Origin: Bdellovibrio sp. 22V
GTDB lineage: Bacteria > Bdellovibrionota > Bdellovibrionia > Bdellovibrionales > Bdellovibrionaceae
NCBI RefSeq assembly: GCF_030169785.1
Contig: NZ_CP125854.1
Span: 1,922,001-1,986,000 of the forward strand
Direction: 5' to 3'
DNA length: 64,000 bases
The position numbers and the translations under genes were made by a program. Positions 20,762 to 29,450 of this stretch are shown here, piece by piece. The number at the start of each line of letters is the position of its first letter. Position 1 is the stretch's first letter. A model generated the notes under the pieces. The model had not been told where the DNA came from, did no database searches, and saw only the letters and a list, made by a program, of their open reading frames with translations.

Positions 20762-21490
20762 TTAAGAAATGCCGTTGTAGCGTTTTGAGCGTGGCTTGAT
20801 GTCTTCTTCAAGAATTTCTTCGCTTCGTAAGCGCATGAAAAGATCGCACAGTTCTTCGCAGCCATTGTTTTTGGCAGAATGATTTTCTAAAGCTTCTTGG
20901 AGCCAAGGTGTGCGTTGATTTAGTTTGTCGGCAATCCAAGCCGTGGGTGTCCAATATTTTTCGAGAGCATATTTAAGATCGGGAACGTAAAGGCTGACGC
21001 CGTCCCATTTTTTTCTTAGGTAGACCATCCCGATGAAATTGATATCGAAGAAAATCAGCAGCGGATAACACCACCACCAATTTAAACCGCGAATGACATT
21101 GCTCCATTCGCCGAGGCCCATGATGTCTGGAAATTTCCAGCGTCCTGTTTCGTCATTAAGATTGTTTTGGTGAAAGAAACCTCTTTTGAGCATTTGTTTA
21201 AGCCACGCTTTGATTTCTGATTTTTCCCCGACGATGGCTAAAGCGAGAATAATTCGACTGGTTTGATCGCGGCTCATACAGCGGGGATTGGTGTCCCATG
21301 TGTCGCCATAGGGAGAGCGGCGAAAAACCCCTGGCTTTACAATCAGATACTTTTTAATTCTTTGAGCGATTTCAGTGGCAAGAATGCGTGCACCCAGAAG
21401 TGCATACAGAGCGCTGGCAAGACCCGTACGGTGAGCAGAGTCACCGTTGCTGCCGTCGGCTTGAACGTATAGACCATAATCGTCAATCAT
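20762..21490 (-). CDS. Conserved-looking cytoplasmic protein of unknown function
   Basis: The 242-residue protein has no signal peptide. It starts with the polar, Gly-rich segment DDYGLYVQADGSNGDSAHRTG and contains many Trp and Tyr (for example GLNWWWCY, KYWTPTAW). Helical segments around residues 23-50 and 75-110 and the GDTWDTN and RDQTSR motifs recall an alpha/alpha-toroid enzyme, but no family is recognised and no catalytic residues can be assigned. One hydrophobic stretch (LLIFFDINFIGMVYL) could be a core strand/helix rather than a membrane segment. Confidence 0.6.
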   Translation of the reverse strand: MIDDYGLYVQADGSNGDSAHRTGLASALYALLGARILATEIAQRIKKYLIVKPGVFRRSPYGDTWDTNPRCMSRDQTSRIILALAIVGEKSEIKAWLKQMLKRGFFHQNNLNDETGRWKFPDIMGLGEWSNVIRGLNWWWCYPLLIFFDINFIGMVYLRKKWDGVSLYVPDLKYALEKYWTPTAWIADKLNQRTPWLQEALENHSAKNNGCEELCDLFMRLRSEEILEEDIKPRSKRYNGIS

Positions 21491-21547: not shown

Positions 21548-21979
21548 TTACTGACAGATAAATCCGGGAACGCCGTTGTAACTTTTGAAGTTGTAATAAG
21601 CGCGAACGTCGAGGTCATTGATAAAAAGCTGTCCTGTATAACGAACGAAGACACCGTTTTTAATTTCTGGATATAAACGTAAGTAGACATATCCACCGGC
21701 ATCGCCGCGAAGATTAATGTCGTCGTACGTAATCTCGGGAGTGATTGTGACGTCTTGGCGGGTATAACCTTGTGTTGTGCCAGGATGACTGATTTTCAAA
21801 GCTGCTGGCCAGTTGTAAGTGCCGATGAAAGGCTTAAGTGGATCAATTGAGCGAGAAAAAACAATTTCGATTTTCGTGTCGTCAGTAAAGCTCGGAATAC
21901 AAGTCAGTCTTTGAATTGAAGCCGCGTGGCCTGTGACAGCGCTGAGTACAAGTGCGAAGATGGCGATAAACAGTTTCAT
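21548..21979 (-). CDS. Secreted protein of unknown function
   Basis: The start at 21979 is supported by AAGGAG 6 nt upstream; an upstream ATG would add seven non-signal residues. The 143-residue product has a signal peptide ending GHAAS and a beta-rich mature domain with a Cys near each end (LTCIPS, FICQ), fitting one disulfide joining the termini. No family is recognised. A similar two-Cys, single-domain layout occurs in the secreted proteins at 1238-1498 and 6056-6439. Confidence 0.65.
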   Translation of the reverse strand: MKLFIAIFALVLSAVTGHAASIQRLTCIPSFTDDTKIEIVFSRSIDPLKPFIGTYNWPAALKISHPGTTQGYTRQDVTITPEITYDDINLRGDAGGYVYLRLYPEIKNGVFVRYTGQLFINDLDVRAYYNFKSYNGVPGFICQ

Positions 21980-22055
21980 TTTTTCTCCTTGCCTAGACAA
22001 AGCGGTCTAGCGGGGGCAGCCCTGTCTTGGCAATAGAAAAAATTGTATTAAAAAC

Positions 22056-24275
22056 TCATTGAGAAACCGCGAAAACCGTATCGAGCGATTCAACACGAGA
22101 TTCCAGGTAATCAAGAACAAATGCAGAACTGCCGCCTTGTTTGAGATGGGCCAAGGCTTGCTGTATCGCTCTTAGCGCTTGTTCGCGAGAGAGCGGGCTT
22201 TTCTGCCCCAATAAGAGCTCTGATTGCAAATGTTTTTCGAACAGAGAGATTCGGTAAAGAACGTCTTTTTCGAAAACATTCAGTCCTCCGTGGGCCTTCA
22301 TGTAGGTTTCAAAATCAATACAACGATAGGCAAGCTCTTTGAGGTTGCAGTCTTTTCTGTCCAAGCCATTCATTTTGCAGTTTCTTGCTTCGGAAGATTT
22401 ATAAAAACGGAAGATTTCTTCGCGGGTTTGCAACTCATAGGGAGCGCTTCGGTGTACGCCATTTTTCGTGAAGCCAAGTCCTTCTCCGGCATAAGTATAT
22501 CCATGAACTTCGGAAAGAAAGGCGGCGGGTAGCAAGCGACCGTGACGATCAAAACGGCGAAGAGCAACGATGTCGCCTTTTTGCATTTGTTCCAAGGGAA
22601 CATTTTCACACAAAGGTGAATCCATCAAGAATGCGAACTCAGAACCGTAGGTGTGGTGAACGCCCTTCGCAAGACCTGCTAAGTATGTGGAGGAGTTCCA
22701 GCAATTCGGTCCATCGGATTTTGCAAACCGACCCTTTAGAAAATCCATCTTTCCTTTTAAAAGCGCCGCTTTCAAATCGACATACCCTCCGGAGCGCACG
22801 GGTGCTGGTGTCGGCATCACCTGCGCGGTTTGCACGAAGAGCTCACGCACCTCTGTCGCTTTAAGATGAGGAAGCTCGGTCCACAGTTGGGCAACCAAAT
22901 TTGCCATATAAGGCGAAGCCATGGATGTTCCTGAATGCGCGATCAAACCTCCGCCGAGGCTTGCTGCGAGAATATCGACTCCGGGAGCAAGAATGTCGAC
23001 GTTGGCTTTTCCGAAGTTGCTGAAGTACGCCATCTTTGCATTCTGCGGAGTCACCTTTGCGATCTCGGAAGCATCCAAGGCACCGACTTTTAAAACATTG
23101 GGTTGCGTGAAGCTTGCGGGATACTGTCGGTTTTTCGATTGGTCGAGATCTTGTTCTGAATTTCCCGCGGCGACAACGAAAAGAGTTTCCGGATTTTCAT
23201 CAATCATTCGCTTGTAAGCTTTGATTGCATCACGCAGACCAAGAAGATCTTTGTTGTCGTGAGGCAGGCCCAAACTCATATTCACAATTTTCACATGATG
23301 CTTTTTCAGGAAGGCGGAGATTTTATCAATGTAGGAAGCTTGCGTATAGTCTCCGGCGAATCCGATCAGGGCCGCATTGTCGAGTCCGCGAATAGCGATG
23401 TGGGCGACGTGAGTTCCATGGGACAACGGACGATGATCTTTCGCCATGCTTGTGGAAGACTCTGTGGGAAGACTGACATTCTTCACTTGTTCCCAGCCGA
23501 AGTTATCATCAACCCAACCATTTCCGTCGTTGTCGATGCCATCGACGGGCTCTAGCGGATTGTTCCACCACTTGGCTGCGAGTTCGCTGTGATTGTAATC
23601 GAAACCGGAATCGATAATAGCGATCAGAAACTTGTGCGGATTTTCCCGTTGACGCTTTAAAACTTCAATTTCAGCGGCGGTTTTACCGGCACGGCGAAGT
23701 GAGTTTGCAACGTCGTACTTTTCATAAAGGGAAAACTGCGAAATAATTTTTCCATCTTTGTTTTTTTCAACAAAGGCGGCCGGTTTTTCCGAATCGTCTT
23801 GATAGGTAAAATTAATGAAGGACAGCAGTTCTTCATTTTTGTTCAAATAGTCTTTTTGCACGACGCGGAAAGGCTTCAGGGTTTCGTAATGCTCCACCCA
23901 TTCCAGTGTAAAAGGCGCTTTATCCGAATAGACCCACCGTTTCAGGCGAAGGGAAGTCTCTGTCGAGTTGTTCTTTTTGTCGAGGCCGGTCCATTCCTCT
24001 TTGTTTTCAATTCGTCCAAAGGATTCTTTTTCTACGGAAAGTTTGCTCTTAATAACGTGACCTTGTTGGGGATAAGAATAGCGCAGCCACGTAGAGAATT
24101 TACCTTCGATGTTGTAGTAGCGTTGTTCAACAAGTTCACCATCGCGATAGTAAGATTCGTTGGCGACAACGCCGTTATCAAACTTTTCCTTGATCACGTC
24201 AAAGGCTGCATACAAGGTTTGCGATCCCAAAATGAGACAAACAAAGACGCTGTTGCAAAGGGCTGAAAATGGCAT
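22056..24275 (-). CDS. Secreted subtilisin-like (S8) serine protease with C-terminal Cys/His hydrolase-like domain
   Basis: The start at 24275 has GAGG 6 nt upstream and opens a signal peptide (MPFSAL... ending LYAA); the longer frame would bury it. In this 739-residue numbering the triad is Asp222 (IAIIDSGFDYN), His286 (SHGTHVAHI) and Ser451 (SGTSMASP), with oxyanion Asn372 (AAGNS). Residues 25-210 form an N-terminal region that may be a propeptide or antitoxin-repeat-like beta domain. After the protease, residues 520-620 contain GPNCWN (Cys525), GDIVALR and EVHGYTY (His591), the order of a papain-like NlpC/CHAP hydrolase. Likely exported and relevant to prey degradation; the last point is inference. 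It is divergent from the P450 gene. Confidence 0.88.
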   Translation of the reverse strand: MPFSALCNSVFVCLILGSQTLYAAFDVIKEKFDNGVVANESYYRDGELVEQRYYNIEGKFSTWLRYSYPQQGHVIKSKLSVEKESFGRIENKEEWTGLDKKNNSTETSLRLKRWVYSDKAPFTLEWVEHYETLKPFRVVQKDYLNKNEELLSFINFTYQDDSEKPAAFVEKNKDGKIISQFSLYEKYDVANSLRRAGKTAAEIEVLKRQRENPHKFLIAIIDSGFDYNHSELAAKWWNNPLEPVDGIDNDGNGWVDDNFGWEQVKNVSLPTESSTSMAKDHRPLSHGTHVAHIAIRGLDNAALIGFAGDYTQASYIDKISAFLKKHHVKIVNMSLGLPHDNKDLLGLRDAIKAYKRMIDENPETLFVVAAGNSEQDLDQSKNRQYPASFTQPNVLKVGALDASEIAKVTPQNAKMAYFSNFGKANVDILAPGVDILAASLGGGLIAHSGTSMASPYMANLVAQLWTELPHLKATEVRELFVQTAQVMPTPAPVRSGGYVDLKAALLKGKMDFLKGRFAKSDGPNCWNSSTYLAGLAKGVHHTYGSEFAFLMDSPLCENVPLEQMQKGDIVALRRFDRHGRLLPAAFLSEVHGYTYAGEGLGFTKNGVHRSAPYELQTREEIFRFYKSSEARNCKMNGLDRKDCNLKELAYRCIDFETYMKAHGGLNVFEKDVLYRISLFEKHLQSELLLGQKSPLSREQALRAIQQALAHLKQGGSSAFVLDYLESRVESLDTVFAVSQ

Positions 24276-24475
24276 GGTCACCTCAGCGATGGGAGTTGCA
24301 ATGTAAGTGCCCCCAGAGCTAAAAACAGTTTTATCTGATCGAAGCTGACCGTCTAAACTTCTGACACTCTCCCATTTTGGTCGCTGTTTGACTCGTGTCA
24401 TTTTTACGAATGTGTTTCTGCATGTTTTTCATGTCACGGTCGTCGCAGAGAAGAAAAAAAGCGATAGTTAAAACT

Positions 24476-25750
24476 ATGGCTCAGCAAATTCCGCAGGCAG
24501 CATTTGATTCGACGGTTTCGCTTTTGCGAGATCCCTATCATTTTATTTCGCGCACTTGCCAAGACATGAATACGCCCGTGTTTCAAACGCGCGTGCTTTT
24601 ACGCAATACGATTTGCATGACGGGCGTCGAGGCCGCGCAGTTTTTTTATGACGAAAAAAACTTTATTCGCAAAGGCGGAATGCCGGAGCCCATCGTGGCG
24701 ACTTTGCTAGGTAAAAAAGGAGTGCAAAGCCTTGATGATGTGGCACACAGACATCGCAAAAAGATGTTCATGTCTTTTATGACGGACGAAAGCGTGCAAA
24801 AGCTCGTTCTTCTGACGGAGAAGCACTGGGATAAAACTGTCCCCGTGTGGATGAAGATGAAGCACATAAATCTTTATGATGAATATATTCGTATTCTTAC
24901 GCAAAGTGTGTGCGAGTGGGCGGGAATTCCGTTGGAACCTGCGGAAGTTTCGGTGCGCAGTGAAGATCTTCGGGCGATGTTTGACGACGCGGGCTCGGCG
25001 GGCCTGCGGCATCTTCATTCGCGACGAGCCAGAAAGAATGCGGAAGCTTGGATCAGCAACATCATTCGACAAGTGCGCAAGGCCCAGCGCAGTGTGGAAC
25101 CGAATTCGCCTGTGGGTGTGATCGCGTGGCATCAAGAAATGGATGGCCGTCTTTTGGATGACAAAACCGCGGCCGTAGAAATTCTTAATCTTTTGCGCCC
25201 GACGGTGGCTGTTGCTGTCTACCTGACTTTTGCAACTCATGCTTTGTATGTGCATCCCGAGTGCCGCGCTAAAGTTCATGACGACACTTATTTAGATTAT
25301 TTTGTGCAGGAGATTCGCCGTTTCTATCCGTTCTTCCCCGCTGTCGCAGCAAAGGTGCGTGAGGATATTGAATGGCAGGGGTATTCCTTCAAGAAGGGGA
25401 CCCGCACGATACTTGATCTTTATGGTATTAATCACGATGCGAATTTATGGTATGAGCCCCGCAAATTTATTCCGGAAAGATTCGCGACGTGGAATGGCAG
25501 CCCCTATAGCTTCGTCCCGCAAGGCGGAGGCGATCATTATACTCAACATCGCTGCCCGGGAGAGAAAATCACTTTAGAGTTGTTGCGAATGGCGACTCGT
25601 TATTTAAGGGAGACGATTTCTTATGCGGTTCCGAGACAAGATTTTCAACTGGAAGAAAATCGGCTTCCTGCTTTACCAAGAAGCCGGTTTATTATCAGTC
25701 ATGTGCAGCTTAAGCTAAGGCCTTCTGAACATCCTCAGCAATATCTCTAG
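24476..25750 (+). CDS. CYP152-family cytochrome P450, fatty-acid peroxygenase type
   Basis: ATG at 24476 gives 424 residues starting MAQQIPQ. CYP152 hallmarks are present: LLRPTVAVAVY with the Arg that binds the fatty-acid carboxylate, the ExxR helix (QEIRRFYPFFP), and the haem-binding loop PQGGGDHYTQHRCPGEKIT with axial Cys. Members use hydrogen peroxide directly to hydroxylate or decarboxylate fatty acids without a reductase. At the position that is His85 in the decarboxylase OleT, this protein has Gln (KGVQSLDD), as in the hydroxylase P450-BSbeta, so hydroxylation is the better guess. Its 3' end overlaps the convergent glutathione peroxidase by 41 bp. Confidence 0.92.
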   Translation: MAQQIPQAAFDSTVSLLRDPYHFISRTCQDMNTPVFQTRVLLRNTICMTGVEAAQFFYDEKNFIRKGGMPEPIVATLLGKKGVQSLDDVAHRHRKKMFMSFMTDESVQKLVLLTEKHWDKTVPVWMKMKHINLYDEYIRILTQSVCEWAGIPLEPAEVSVRSEDLRAMFDDAGSAGLRHLHSRRARKNAEAWISNIIRQVRKAQRSVEPNSPVGVIAWHQEMDGRLLDDKTAAVEILNLLRPTVAVAVYLTFATHALYVHPECRAKVHDDTYLDYFVQEIRRFYPFFPAVAAKVREDIEWQGYSFKKGTRTILDLYGINHDANLWYEPRKFIPERFATWNGSPYSFVPQGGGDHYTQHRCPGEKITLELLRMATRYLRETISYAVPRQDFQLEENRLPALPRSRFIISHVQLKLRPSEHPQQYL

Positions 25751-26405: not shown

Positions 26406-27917
26406 ATGGGGATCAGGTATTTTTTGGCAATCACCATAGTGGGGCTTGTGCTCTCGCCTTTGCAAGGTCATGCGGATTCTTATGCCGCATGCCACACGAC
26501 ATGCAATGCACGACATCCTAACAATCCTTCCGCGATGTATGAAAACTGTTTACAGGATTGTTATGGAAGCATGAACACTGTTGATCTTCCCGAAGTAGGG
26601 CCCCTCCCTCCTTCTAGACCATCTGACCTCGGTTCGCAAAACACGCGTACCAACGGCAACGGCAATAATCAAAACCAGAACCGCAATCAAAATCAAGGCG
26701 GAAACCAAAATCAACAGCAAGCGAACCAGTGTGTTCAGCAGTTTGAAGCGTTGTTATCTCAGTGCAACTCGCAAGTCGATGAAACCTCTTACCAGTGTGA
26801 TGAAAAAAACGATTCAGGTATGACGGGAGTTGCAGACACCGCTTCGCAGATTGCTCTTTTGATGGGGCAGCAAACGGCGGCGAGTGTGCAAGCCGCGTGC
26901 GGAAAGATGGGGGATTTGTCTCAGGCAGCGCAAGGTGCGGTGGCAGCGTATCGTTTGAATTGCAGTAACTCGATTAAGACATGCCGGGAAACTTGCGATG
27001 CTCCGAAAAACTATGTGAACTCGAACGCAACTTGTTTCAATGGTGGTGCAGGCGCTGCCAATAACGGTGTCTATGCATTGTCGCGCGCGCAGTCCGCTCG
27101 CGATCGTTGCAATAATTTCGATTCGAAAGTTCAACAAGCACAACAAGCTATTCAGAACTATGGAGCGACGGCGGCGAATGCTTCTCAGTGTGAGGAGCAA
27201 ACCAAAGGCGAAGCTACGCCACCGCCGGATGTGTGTAAGCAAAATCCTCAGATCGCAGGATGTACACCTGCGGGTCCCATTGATTGTTCAAAACCTGAAA
27301 TGGCGACAAATAAAGTGTGTGTATGTTCGAAAACTCCCACAGACCCTATGTGTACAAACTTAGGTAAAGCTTCCGACGTTATGGTTGGTGGAGGCTCCTT
27401 TGATCCTGCATCGCGCTTGAATTCGGGATCCAGCGATGACTTCGGTGGTGATATTCCCGACACGCCGGCCATCTCGCACGGCAAATTGCCAAGCGGTGGA
27501 CCCGGTGAAGCTGTCGACGGAAAACAAGGCGCCGGAGCTGATCTTGCGACGAATCCGGGGAGTGGCAGCAGTCTTGCCGGTGCGGGCGGAGGTCGAAGTG
27601 GTGCCGGTGGTGGTGCTGCTGACAACGCGACAGGTGGTGGTTCCGGCTTCTATGGTGGAGGCAGCGGCGGCGGTGTCTTCGGAGGTGGCGGCGGAGGCGG
27701 CGGCGCTCGAGGTGCCGCGGGCTCTTACGGTAAAGTCGGCGCGAATGGAAAAGCGCCGGGTGCAGATCTTCGTCAGTTTCTTCCAGGCGGAAAATTTGAT
27801 CCGCGACGAGGAGTTGCGGGAGTGTCAGGACCTGATGGCATCACGGGACCTCACTCAAATATTTGGCAAAAGATTCAGAATCGATATCAAGTGGTCAGCC
27901 CTTCGTTGATCCCTTGA
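26406..27917 (+). CDS. Secreted Cys-rich/Gly-rich surface protein, tandem paralogue A
   Basis: The 503-residue protein has a signal peptide ending GHAD. Modules: a small Cys module (about 25-60, four Cys), an Asn/Gln-rich low-complexity linker (about 78-105), a helical Cys core (about 107-305, starting QCVQQFEALL, with QNYGATAANASQCEEQT and PPPDVCKQNPQIAGC), a long Gly/Ser-rich segment (about 375-445), and a conserved C-terminal tail with LRQFLPGGKFDPRRG and NIWQKIQNRYQV. It shares the core, Gly region and tail with the next gene, but the N-terminal module differs. Nothing identifies an enzyme; an exported structural, adhesive or fibre-associated role is inferred. Confidence 0.75.
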   Translation: MGIRYFLAITIVGLVLSPLQGHADSYAACHTTCNARHPNNPSAMYENCLQDCYGSMNTVDLPEVGPLPPSRPSDLGSQNTRTNGNGNNQNQNRNQNQGGNQNQQQANQCVQQFEALLSQCNSQVDETSYQCDEKNDSGMTGVADTASQIALLMGQQTAASVQAACGKMGDLSQAAQGAVAAYRLNCSNSIKTCRETCDAPKNYVNSNATCFNGGAGAANNGVYALSRAQSARDRCNNFDSKVQQAQQAIQNYGATAANASQCEEQTKGEATPPPDVCKQNPQIAGCTPAGPIDCSKPEMATNKVCVCSKTPTDPMCTNLGKASDVMVGGGSFDPASRLNSGSSDDFGGDIPDTPAISHGKLPSGGPGEAVDGKQGAGADLATNPGSGSSLAGAGGGRSGAGGGAADNATGGGSGFYGGGSGGGVFGGGGGGGGARGAAGSYGKVGANGKAPGADLRQFLPGGKFDPRRGVAGVSGPDGITGPHSNIWQKIQNRYQVVSPSLIP

Positions 27918-27989: not shown

Positions 27990-29450
27990 ATGGGGAATGT
28001 TTTCTATTCAGTAATACTCTTAGCGATCAGTCTTTTCACTTTTCCTGAAGACGCGTATGCCCGTTGTCGAGCTCAATGTGCTGAAGGTTTTAAATGCGTA
28101 TACAATTCTCGAGGGCATGAAATGTGTGAACCGGAGCGCCGTGATGAATGCACACGGCAGCTCGGCGAGTGCTATCCTGGATATAGTGCGCGACTTAATA
28201 GCGCGGGCTCGTGCGAATGTCTTCCAAATTCAAACAACAATAATAATAACAATAACAACAATACAGCTATTGACTGTCGTACGCAGTTCAACAATCTGTT
28301 GCAATCTTGCCAAACGCAAATTCAGGAAACGTCTTATACCTGTGATGAAAAAAATGATTCTGGTATGAACGGTGTTGCTGATACGGCTTCGCAAGTTTCT
28401 CTTTTATTCGGCCAGCAAACGGCGGCAAGTATTCAAGCCGCTTGTTCAAGAATGGCGGGTTTAACCCAAGCGGCGCAAGGTGCAGTGGCTGCGTATCGAT
28501 TGTTATGCAGTAGTTCCATTGGCCAGTGTCGATCGACTTGTGCGGCAGCGGCGGATTTTATTCGTGCGAATCCAAATTGTTCGCCTGTAAGTGCAGAGAA
28601 TGTGCAAATGTTGTCTTCTGCGGAATCGCAGGCAAAACGTTGCGACGACTTCCAGTCTAAAGTGGCGGAAGCGCAACAAGCGATTCAAAACTATGGCGCG
28701 ACGGCTGCGAATGCGGCTCAGTGTGAAGAGCAAACAAGCGGAGACGCAACACCGCCACCTGATGTCTGTAAACAGAACCCACAAATTGCGGGTTGTACGC
28801 CAACGGGACCGATCGATTGTTCAAAGCCGGAAATGGCGACGAATAAAATCTGTGTGTGTACGAAGACTCCGACAGATCCGATATGTATTACTCAAGCAAA
28901 ACCGGATACCAGTGTTGGCGTTGGCGGCAGCATCGACTCGTCATCGCGAAAACTTGCAGCAAGCACAGGCGATAGCGGTCTTGGGGATATTCCCGGTTTG
29001 CCAGGTTTAGAGCATGGCAAATTGCCAAGTGGCGGAAGCGGCGAAGCCGTCGACGGAAAACAAGGTGCCGGCGCAAATCTGGGTTCTGATGGCGGCGGCA
29101 GCGGCGGCGGTCCCTCTGGAAGAGGCGGCGGTGGCGCGGCAGGTGAAGACGATTCACAAGCTGTCACAGCGGGTTTCTATGGCGGAGGCAGTGGCGCTGG
29201 TGGAGCCTTCGGCGGCGGATCAGGTCGCTACGGTGCGGGCGCAGCTGGAAATTATGCAGGGGCGGCAGGAGCAAACGGTCAGGCTGGAAATGGTCCTGAC
29301 TTACGAAGATTTTTACCTGGTGGTCAATTCGATCCTAAACGCGGTCTTTCAGGAATGGGCGGCCCGGATGGAATCACAGGACCGCATACAAATATCTGGC
29401 AAAAGATTCAGAACCGCTACAGAGTGATGAGTCCTTCACTTCTGCCATAA
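27990..29450 (+). CDS. Secreted Cys-rich/Gly-rich surface protein, tandem paralogue B
   Basis: The 486-residue protein has a signal peptide ending DAYA. The N-terminal module (about 25-78) has eight Cys and differs from paralogue A. An uninterrupted run of ten Asn, encoded by AAC/AAT repeats near 28232-28261, links it to the shared core (IDCRTQFNNLL onward, with QNYGATAANAAQCEEQT), the Gly-rich region and the tail ending YRVMSPSLLP. The core is close in sequence to paralogue A, so the pair arose by tandem duplication with the tip exchanged or diverged. Function unknown; exported. It converges on lysC with an 8-bp gap. Confidence 0.75.
   Translation: MGNVFYSVILLAISLFTFPEDAYARCRAQCAEGFKCVYNSRGHEMCEPERRDECTRQLGECYPGYSARLNSAGSCECLPNSNNNNNNNNNNTAIDCRTQFNNLLQSCQTQIQETSYTCDEKNDSGMNGVADTASQVSLLFGQQTAASIQAACSRMAGLTQAAQGAVAAYRLLCSSSIGQCRSTCAAAADFIRANPNCSPVSAENVQMLSSAESQAKRCDDFQSKVAEAQQAIQNYGATAANAAQCEEQTSGDATPPPDVCKQNPQIAGCTPTGPIDCSKPEMATNKICVCTKTPTDPICITQAKPDTSVGVGGSIDSSSRKLAASTGDSGLGDIPGLPGLEHGKLPSGGSGEAVDGKQGAGANLGSDGGGSGGGPSGRGGGGAAGEDDSQAVTAGFYGGGSGAGGAFGGGSGRYGAGAAGNYAGAAGANGQAGNGPDLRRFLPGGQFDPKRGLSGMGGPDGITGPHTNIWQKIQNRYRVMSPSLLP

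Follow-up and report, generated by a model that had tools for sequence, protein, structure and literature searches.

Bdellovibrio bacteriovorus encodes 15 subtilisin-like proteins, many of which carry extra domains (PMC2605481), and other secreted proteases, including the subtilase Bd2269, have been described to rise at prey exit (PMC12546842). Surveys of cell-wall enzymes in predators rest on annotation terms and Pfam (e.g., PMC11656739), and the main text of that survey contains neither “NlpC” nor “papain”. For papain-type enzymes, the third catalytic residues listed in a section of PMC10318531 are Asn, Gln, Asp, Glu, Ser, Cys and His, and that section lists no Lys. Finally, in the permuted NlpC/P60 enzymes of the LRAT and YaeF/YiiX groups His precedes Cys in the chain (PMC3142127).

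A chain that appears to join a subtilisin to an enzyme of the NlpC/P60 type is encoded in the window analysed here, a stretch of 64,000 nucleotides from Bdellovibrio sp. 22V, whose genome consists of one contig of 3,601,631 bases. The open reading frame runs on the minus strand, like all features of the chain given below, from 24275 to 22056 and comprises 740 codons including the stop, i.e., 739 amino acids. An in-frame ATG upstream of this start would yield 781 amino acids; the start at 24275 was taken because the N-terminus then resembles a signal peptide and is aligned by eye with the orthologues, among which L010-L016 have N-termini resembling that of the window protein (by eye). The putative signal peptide (approximately residues 1-23; 24207..24275) was assigned by eye as a hydrophobic N-terminus ending in LYAA. 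Taken as a whole, the protein is probably a secreted, active subtilisin combined with an active NlpC/P60-fold cysteine amidase or endopeptidase of a new family, which would likely cut peptidoglycan stem peptides.

An intact subtilisin domain with the triad Asp222/His286/Ser451 had already been proposed in a sequence-only reading of this DNA, and both the Pfam match and the motifs bear it out. Peptidase_S8 (PF00082) matches residues 216-490 (22806..23630) with an E value of 5.3e-37 and 128.1 bits against a cut-off of 21.8, the triad residues D222 (IIDSG), H286 (SHGTHVA) and S451 (HSGTSMASP) are all present together with the oxyanion Asn motif AAGN, and the domain belongs to the S8 family. The triad and AAGN motifs likewise occur in all 10 related chains inspected. 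The nearest PDB sequence to the S8 part is deseasin MCP-01 (3vv3, E 5.5e-25), and residues 218-508 of the full-length AlphaFold2 model align structurally to subtilisins. The full-length model (pLDDT 69.9, S8 part mostly below 60) is too poor for the mutual facing of the domains to be read from it. Ahead of the S8 domain lies a beta-rich region (residues 25-205; 23661..24203) with twelve predicted strands between residues 26 and 182 (pLDDT about 45-87), which may serve as a propeptide. It matches no family: Peptidase_S8 alone was significant in a Pfam search of the whole chain, with nothing for the N-terminal region.

Downstream of the S8 domain, the motifs GPNCWN (from residue 522, containing Cys525), GDIVALR (from 567; GD 568) and EVHGYTY (from 589, containing His591) lie exactly where they had been noted before. 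Pfam, searched with residues 511-739 at E values up to 10, returned 0 families, neither NlpC/P60 nor CHAP. Against the PDB, phmmer with the C-terminal domain gave nothing better than E 0.46, a 27-row family profile produced a best match no better than E 0.54, and all NCBIfam matches of the whole window protein are confined to its first 507 residues. PHROGs, searched with four proteins, gave weak matches only, to families of unknown function. Among relatives, NLPC_P60 Pfam matches were obtained for three of ten and four of ten proteins scanned, all of them weak and below the 23-bit cut-off, and by this cut-off the window domain itself falls outside NlpC/P60 (PF00877). The two best of these weak matches among the first ten proteins scanned come from freestanding paralogues in the same genome, L060 (G000:C1:1800606-1801031) and L063 (G000:C1:2658784-2659209). 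The fused protein contains no recognised peptidoglycan-binding module.

Of the profile search and structure prediction suggested by the sequence-only reading, the former gave no family match and the latter an NlpC/P60-like fold. For residues 505-739, AlphaFold2 reached a mean pLDDT of 93.1 and a pTM of 0.90 with 22 alignment rows. No Foldseek match in the PDB reached an E value of 0.001; the two closest, with E 0.013 and 0.014, were NlpC/P60-type cell-wall autolysins. When VIA-align was run on the Foldseek candidates, 3h41 came out on top (Z 9.4, 112 residues, rmsd 3.4), along with 8er5 (Z 9.4, 104 residues, rmsd 2.5), 4xcm (Z 9.3, 106 residues, rmsd 3.3) and MepS 8xup (Z 9.2, 104 residues, rmsd 3.2), and an NlpC/P60 protein also ranked first in a search of a viral library (E 1.7e-4). 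The NlpC/P60 structures align over model residues 1 to ~150, delimiting a putative papain-fold domain at residues 505-654 (22314..22763). The helical tail (model residues 161-235) resembles generic helical proteins only and forms, in the prediction, a fast-evolving C-terminal three-helix bundle (residues 665-739; 22059..22283).

In this model, helix 525-532 begins with Cys525 (22701..22703), the neighbouring core strand 589-597 contains His591 (22503..22505), and strand 600-604 ends with Lys604 (22464..22466). As modelled, Cys525 and His591, the putative nucleophile and general base, sit where the NlpC/P60 fold has its catalytic Cys and His, and Cys comes before His, the reverse of the order in the permuted LRAT and YaeF/YiiX enzymes. 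The C-terminal domain very probably has an NlpC/P60-like papain fold, and with this model and these structural neighbours the earlier guess at a papain-like fold stands. Of the two classes then named, NlpC/P60 is favoured over CHAP because the top structural rows are NlpC/P60 enzymes, whereas the CHAP structure 4ct3 appears at rank 50 (Z 6.9).

The conservation of the candidate active-site residues was assessed in a family alignment of 57 non-redundant rows, which were derived from 79 profile hits in the loci collected up to then by a 90% identity filter and a 90-residue floor. His591 and Lys604 are present in 57/57 rows, GPNC with Cys525 in 56/56 rows covering that position, Glu546 in 55/57 and Asp568 in 53/57. 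Part of the Cys525 conservation arises by construction, because 17 of the 57 rows came via a pattern scan containing GPNCWN and the 27-row seed was restricted to chains with GPNC; His591 and Lys604 were absent from every pattern that returned rows. Accordingly qualified, the expectation that homologues would conserve Cys525 and His591 held completely over these rows wherever the positions are covered. In 20 sampled weaker profile hits, inspected by eye, His occurs in 20 and Lys in 19 (Arg in L167), and all 20 have the Asn-Cys motif, which in L175 and L179 lies outside the aligned part. Eight congeneric orthologues keep the motif residues at 55-69% overall identity. Purifying selection acts on the cores of both enzymes, with dN/dS values of 0.03-0.04 for the S8 core (three close pairs) and 0.06-0.12 for the NlpC-like core (four close pairs); the C-terminal helical tail is looser (0.08-0.31, four close pairs).

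The other cysteines of the domain, C556, C633, C643 and C652 (22320..22610), are structural by prediction and would pair as C556-C652 and C633-C643. Between positions 522 and 652, five cysteines are found in 45 rows, three in seven and one in three, while one row has two and another four. C633 and C643 occur together in 43 rows, are both absent in 11 and split in three, where by alignment column only C643 is retained. For C556 and C652, 53 rows have both and three have neither, and one row combines C556 with a gap at 652. In the three rows with a single cysteine, Cys525 is the one retained. The simplest reading of these patterns is that of two disulfides and one free, presumably catalytic Cys525. 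Cys525 as a disulfide-only residue was rejected: cysteine counts fall from 5 to 3 to 1, and Cys525 is always kept where covered. Two distant relatives from genomes of the phylum of an Elusimicrobia metagenome-assembled genome (MAG), L135 and L136, lack the structural cysteines and have His-Lys at positions 603-604, which makes them a helpful outgroup for judging the third catalytic seat.

These observations bear on the view that the domain has no catalytic function and is a module stabilised by disulfides that serves peptidoglycan binding or folding. NlpC/P60 domains of this kind exist, and RipD (4jxb and 4lj1, by titles) is in the structural list. Yet, every row that covers the Cys and His positions retains both residues, and the number of cysteines is odd in 55/57 rows, with Cys525 left unpaired and standing as the sole Cys in the three 1-Cys rows; a RipD-like role is therefore highly improbable. 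Catalytic competence of the second domain, on the other hand, can be assumed with good confidence.

The third catalytic seat could be held by either of two adjacent residues. Among 30 aligned canonical NlpC/P60 rows, of which 29 are filled at this place, the third residue is His in 15, Glu in 12, Asp in one and Asn in one, and Lys in 0/29. It follows the catalytic His by 12 positions in 24/30 canonical rows, whereas the family-invariant Lys604, at or beside the third seat in the model, follows His591 by 13 in 55/57 rows and by 12 in two (L082 and L083). The profile alignment, which is gapless, pairs Thr603 with the canonical third residue. Position 603 is polar in 54/57 rows (Ser 23, Thr 15, Glu 8, Asn 3, His 3, Gln 1, Asp 1) and Ala in three, and Phe/Tyr602 suits the hydrophobic register of NlpC/P60. 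The arguments for Lys604 are its invariance while 603 varies, the canonical spacing of 12 in L082 and L083, and a two-residue turn (598-599, DSSP), which would set Lys604 on the face of His591 if there is no bulge. L082 and L083 (4725-6005) also bear C-terminal ankyrin-like repeats (by eye).

A Cys-His-Lys constellation was not accepted as a settled triad, given that the gapless alignment favours Thr603, that position 603 is mostly polar and that residue 602 fits the register. Judged from the alignments, it is likelier that the third seat belongs to the variable polar residue at 603 and that Lys604 has another role than that Lys604 holds the seat; beside the seat, the lysine would perhaps bind a substrate carboxylate. 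It is doubtful that the domain represents a Cys-His-Lys active site in a large, Bdellovibrionota-centred family, which in some predators would be combined with a subtilisin into an enzyme that digests the envelope in two steps. A search of a literature library found no paper on a Cys-His-Lys catalytic triad and, if true, Lys604 in the third seat would constitute a new type of active site.

The proposed mode of action follows the order of the chain, i.e., signal peptide, beta-rich N-terminal region, active subtilisin and NlpC/P60-fold cysteine amidase or endopeptidase. After export, the subtilisin would cut proteins, and Cys525, activated by His591, would cut amide bonds, most likely those of peptidoglycan stem peptides. 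This would take place in the prey periplasm or in that of the producing cell, and the subtilisin might cleave the linker and release the second domain. Peptidoglycan is on balance the probable substrate of the second domain, and its use against prey has about an even chance; the earlier suggestion of a prey-degrading tool is plausible. Alternatively, the second domain could be an active papain-fold enzyme on proteins (a protease, deamidase, transglutaminase-like enzyme or isopeptidase), which would assist the subtilisin in the digestion or modification of proteins of the prey. A protease as partner domain would suit such a function, the papain fold serves many chemistries, the structural neighbours include the asparagine deamidase TecA (Z 7.0, 113 aligned, rmsd 3.8), and the invariant Lys has no counterpart in the 29 canonical NlpC/P60 rows. 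However, NlpC/P60 cell-wall enzymes head the list with higher Z values, even if a fold is no proof of substrate either way, and action on proteins appears rather unlikely compared with cleavage of peptidoglycan.

Chains combining an S8 and a cysteine domain occur in 9/24 Bdellovibrio genomes searched (the window genome and eight others), at one conserved locus, and the fusion is therefore no general requirement of the genus. The same three-part chain is found in two more distant genomes: in G140, the chain L111 shows 40% identity over residues 3-692, and in a Bacteriovoracia MAG (L068) the open reading frame stops soon after the core domain. In G019 (L017), the N-terminal and S8 parts are present without the third domain. 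On the domain tree, in which 10/57 rows are fused, the fusion label needs two changes; a single origin is still compatible with the data, and the whole-chain homology in G140 would speak for one. The fusion may also serve mainly for delivery, in that the subtilisin matures itself and frees the C-terminal enzyme, which would then act alone like its freestanding relatives. This possibility concerns the mode of action and is compatible with a two-enzyme chain. Most family members are indeed freestanding open reading frames with signal-peptide-like N-termini (by eye), and the G019 chain does without the third domain; the fused order is nevertheless conserved across distant genomes, and delivery as the main purpose is unlikely.

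The surroundings of the fused gene are partly conserved. All eight orthologue regions fetched contain a glutathione-peroxidase-like neighbour followed by homologues of the plus-strand open reading frames 26406-27917 and 27990-29450, and recA lies within the fetched region in five of them (L190-L194) and not in L187-L189. These two reading frames have signal-like N-termini, are paralogous to each other, recur in relatives as two to three adjoining copies beside the fused gene, and have no match in Pfam. Adjoining the fused gene on the plus strand is a cytochrome P450-like gene (24395-25750), which tblastn found in none of the regions of 10 relatives and which therefore looks like a local insertion. 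The small downstream minus-strand reading frames 20762-21490 and 21548-21982 were likewise found by tblastn in none of the 10 regions. As candidate operon partners, all three were discarded: not found in these regions, they do not seem to belong to the system. Genome G006 is presumably that of strain HD100, and there a gene adjoining the fused orthologue codes for a 247-amino-acid 3D-domain protein. This protein would fit Bd0519, an MltA-like protein of 247 amino acids, deletion of which delays prey entry (PMC10127604). The HD100 orthologue of the fused gene is not named in the literature found by search, nor does the portion of the prey-exit protease work considered here (PMC12546842) name it.

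The cysteine domain constitutes a family without description in the libraries and literature searched, which is found mainly in Bdellovibrionota and relatives, the profile search having covered this phylum and that of the Elusimicrobia MAG. About a third of the sampled Bdellovibrionota genomes (98/290; 73/222 near-complete ones) match the 27-row profile at E 0.001 or better, as compared to 4/198 in the other phylum. A GPNCWN-pattern scan of genome contigs, which detects close relatives only, returned 65 stretches, with 21 loci confirmed; the titles of 20 refer to Bdellovibrio, Bacteriovorax, Oligoflexia and related groups, and the remaining locus belongs to an Elusimicrobia MAG. The window genome itself harbours two further freestanding loci of the domain. 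A phage origin was rejected: scanning viral contigs for relatives gave 34 stretches and 0 confirmed ones, and the PHROGs matches are weak. Canonical NlpC/P60 (PF00877) occurs in only 7/39 close relatives and was not found in the fused gene's own genome; with canonical members rare, the new family could therefore fill their role. A broad literature search returned nothing on this family among the matches listed, and the family would escape annotation-based surveys because the libraries searched fail to recognise it. The residues C525, H591, T603 and K604 are open to direct tests, and the family might supply new lytic enzymes.

Compared with known systems, the new element is, as modelled, the combination of a secreted subtilisin with an NlpC/P60-fold enzyme from a family without description in the libraries and papers searched. 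Its second domain resembles the NlpC/P60 peptidases (PF00877; MepS, CwlO, RipA, 3h41) in its predicted fold, with Cys at a helix start, a GD strand and then His on the next strand, in this order. It differs from them in staying below the Pfam cut-off, in the invariant Lys after the His strand with its longer usual spacing, in the extra cysteine pairs and in the C-terminal three-helix bundle. CHAP amidases share the order of Cys and His and a papain-type fold (LysK CHAP 4ct3, 111 aligned, rmsd 3.6), but rank structurally below NlpC/P60, and a CHAP Pfam match is absent. Vasohibins are eukaryotic proteins, and Tae3 is an effector. The Tae3 amidase, RavD and vasohibins use Cys-His-Ser triads and thus accept a hydroxyl third residue, as Thr603 or Ser would be here, whereas the section on those enzymes describes no invariant Lys (PMC10318531). 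With the S8 family and deseasin MCP-01 the fused chain shares the intact triad and the Pfam match, and it differs from them by the addition of an N-terminal beta-rich region and a C-terminal cysteine-enzyme domain.
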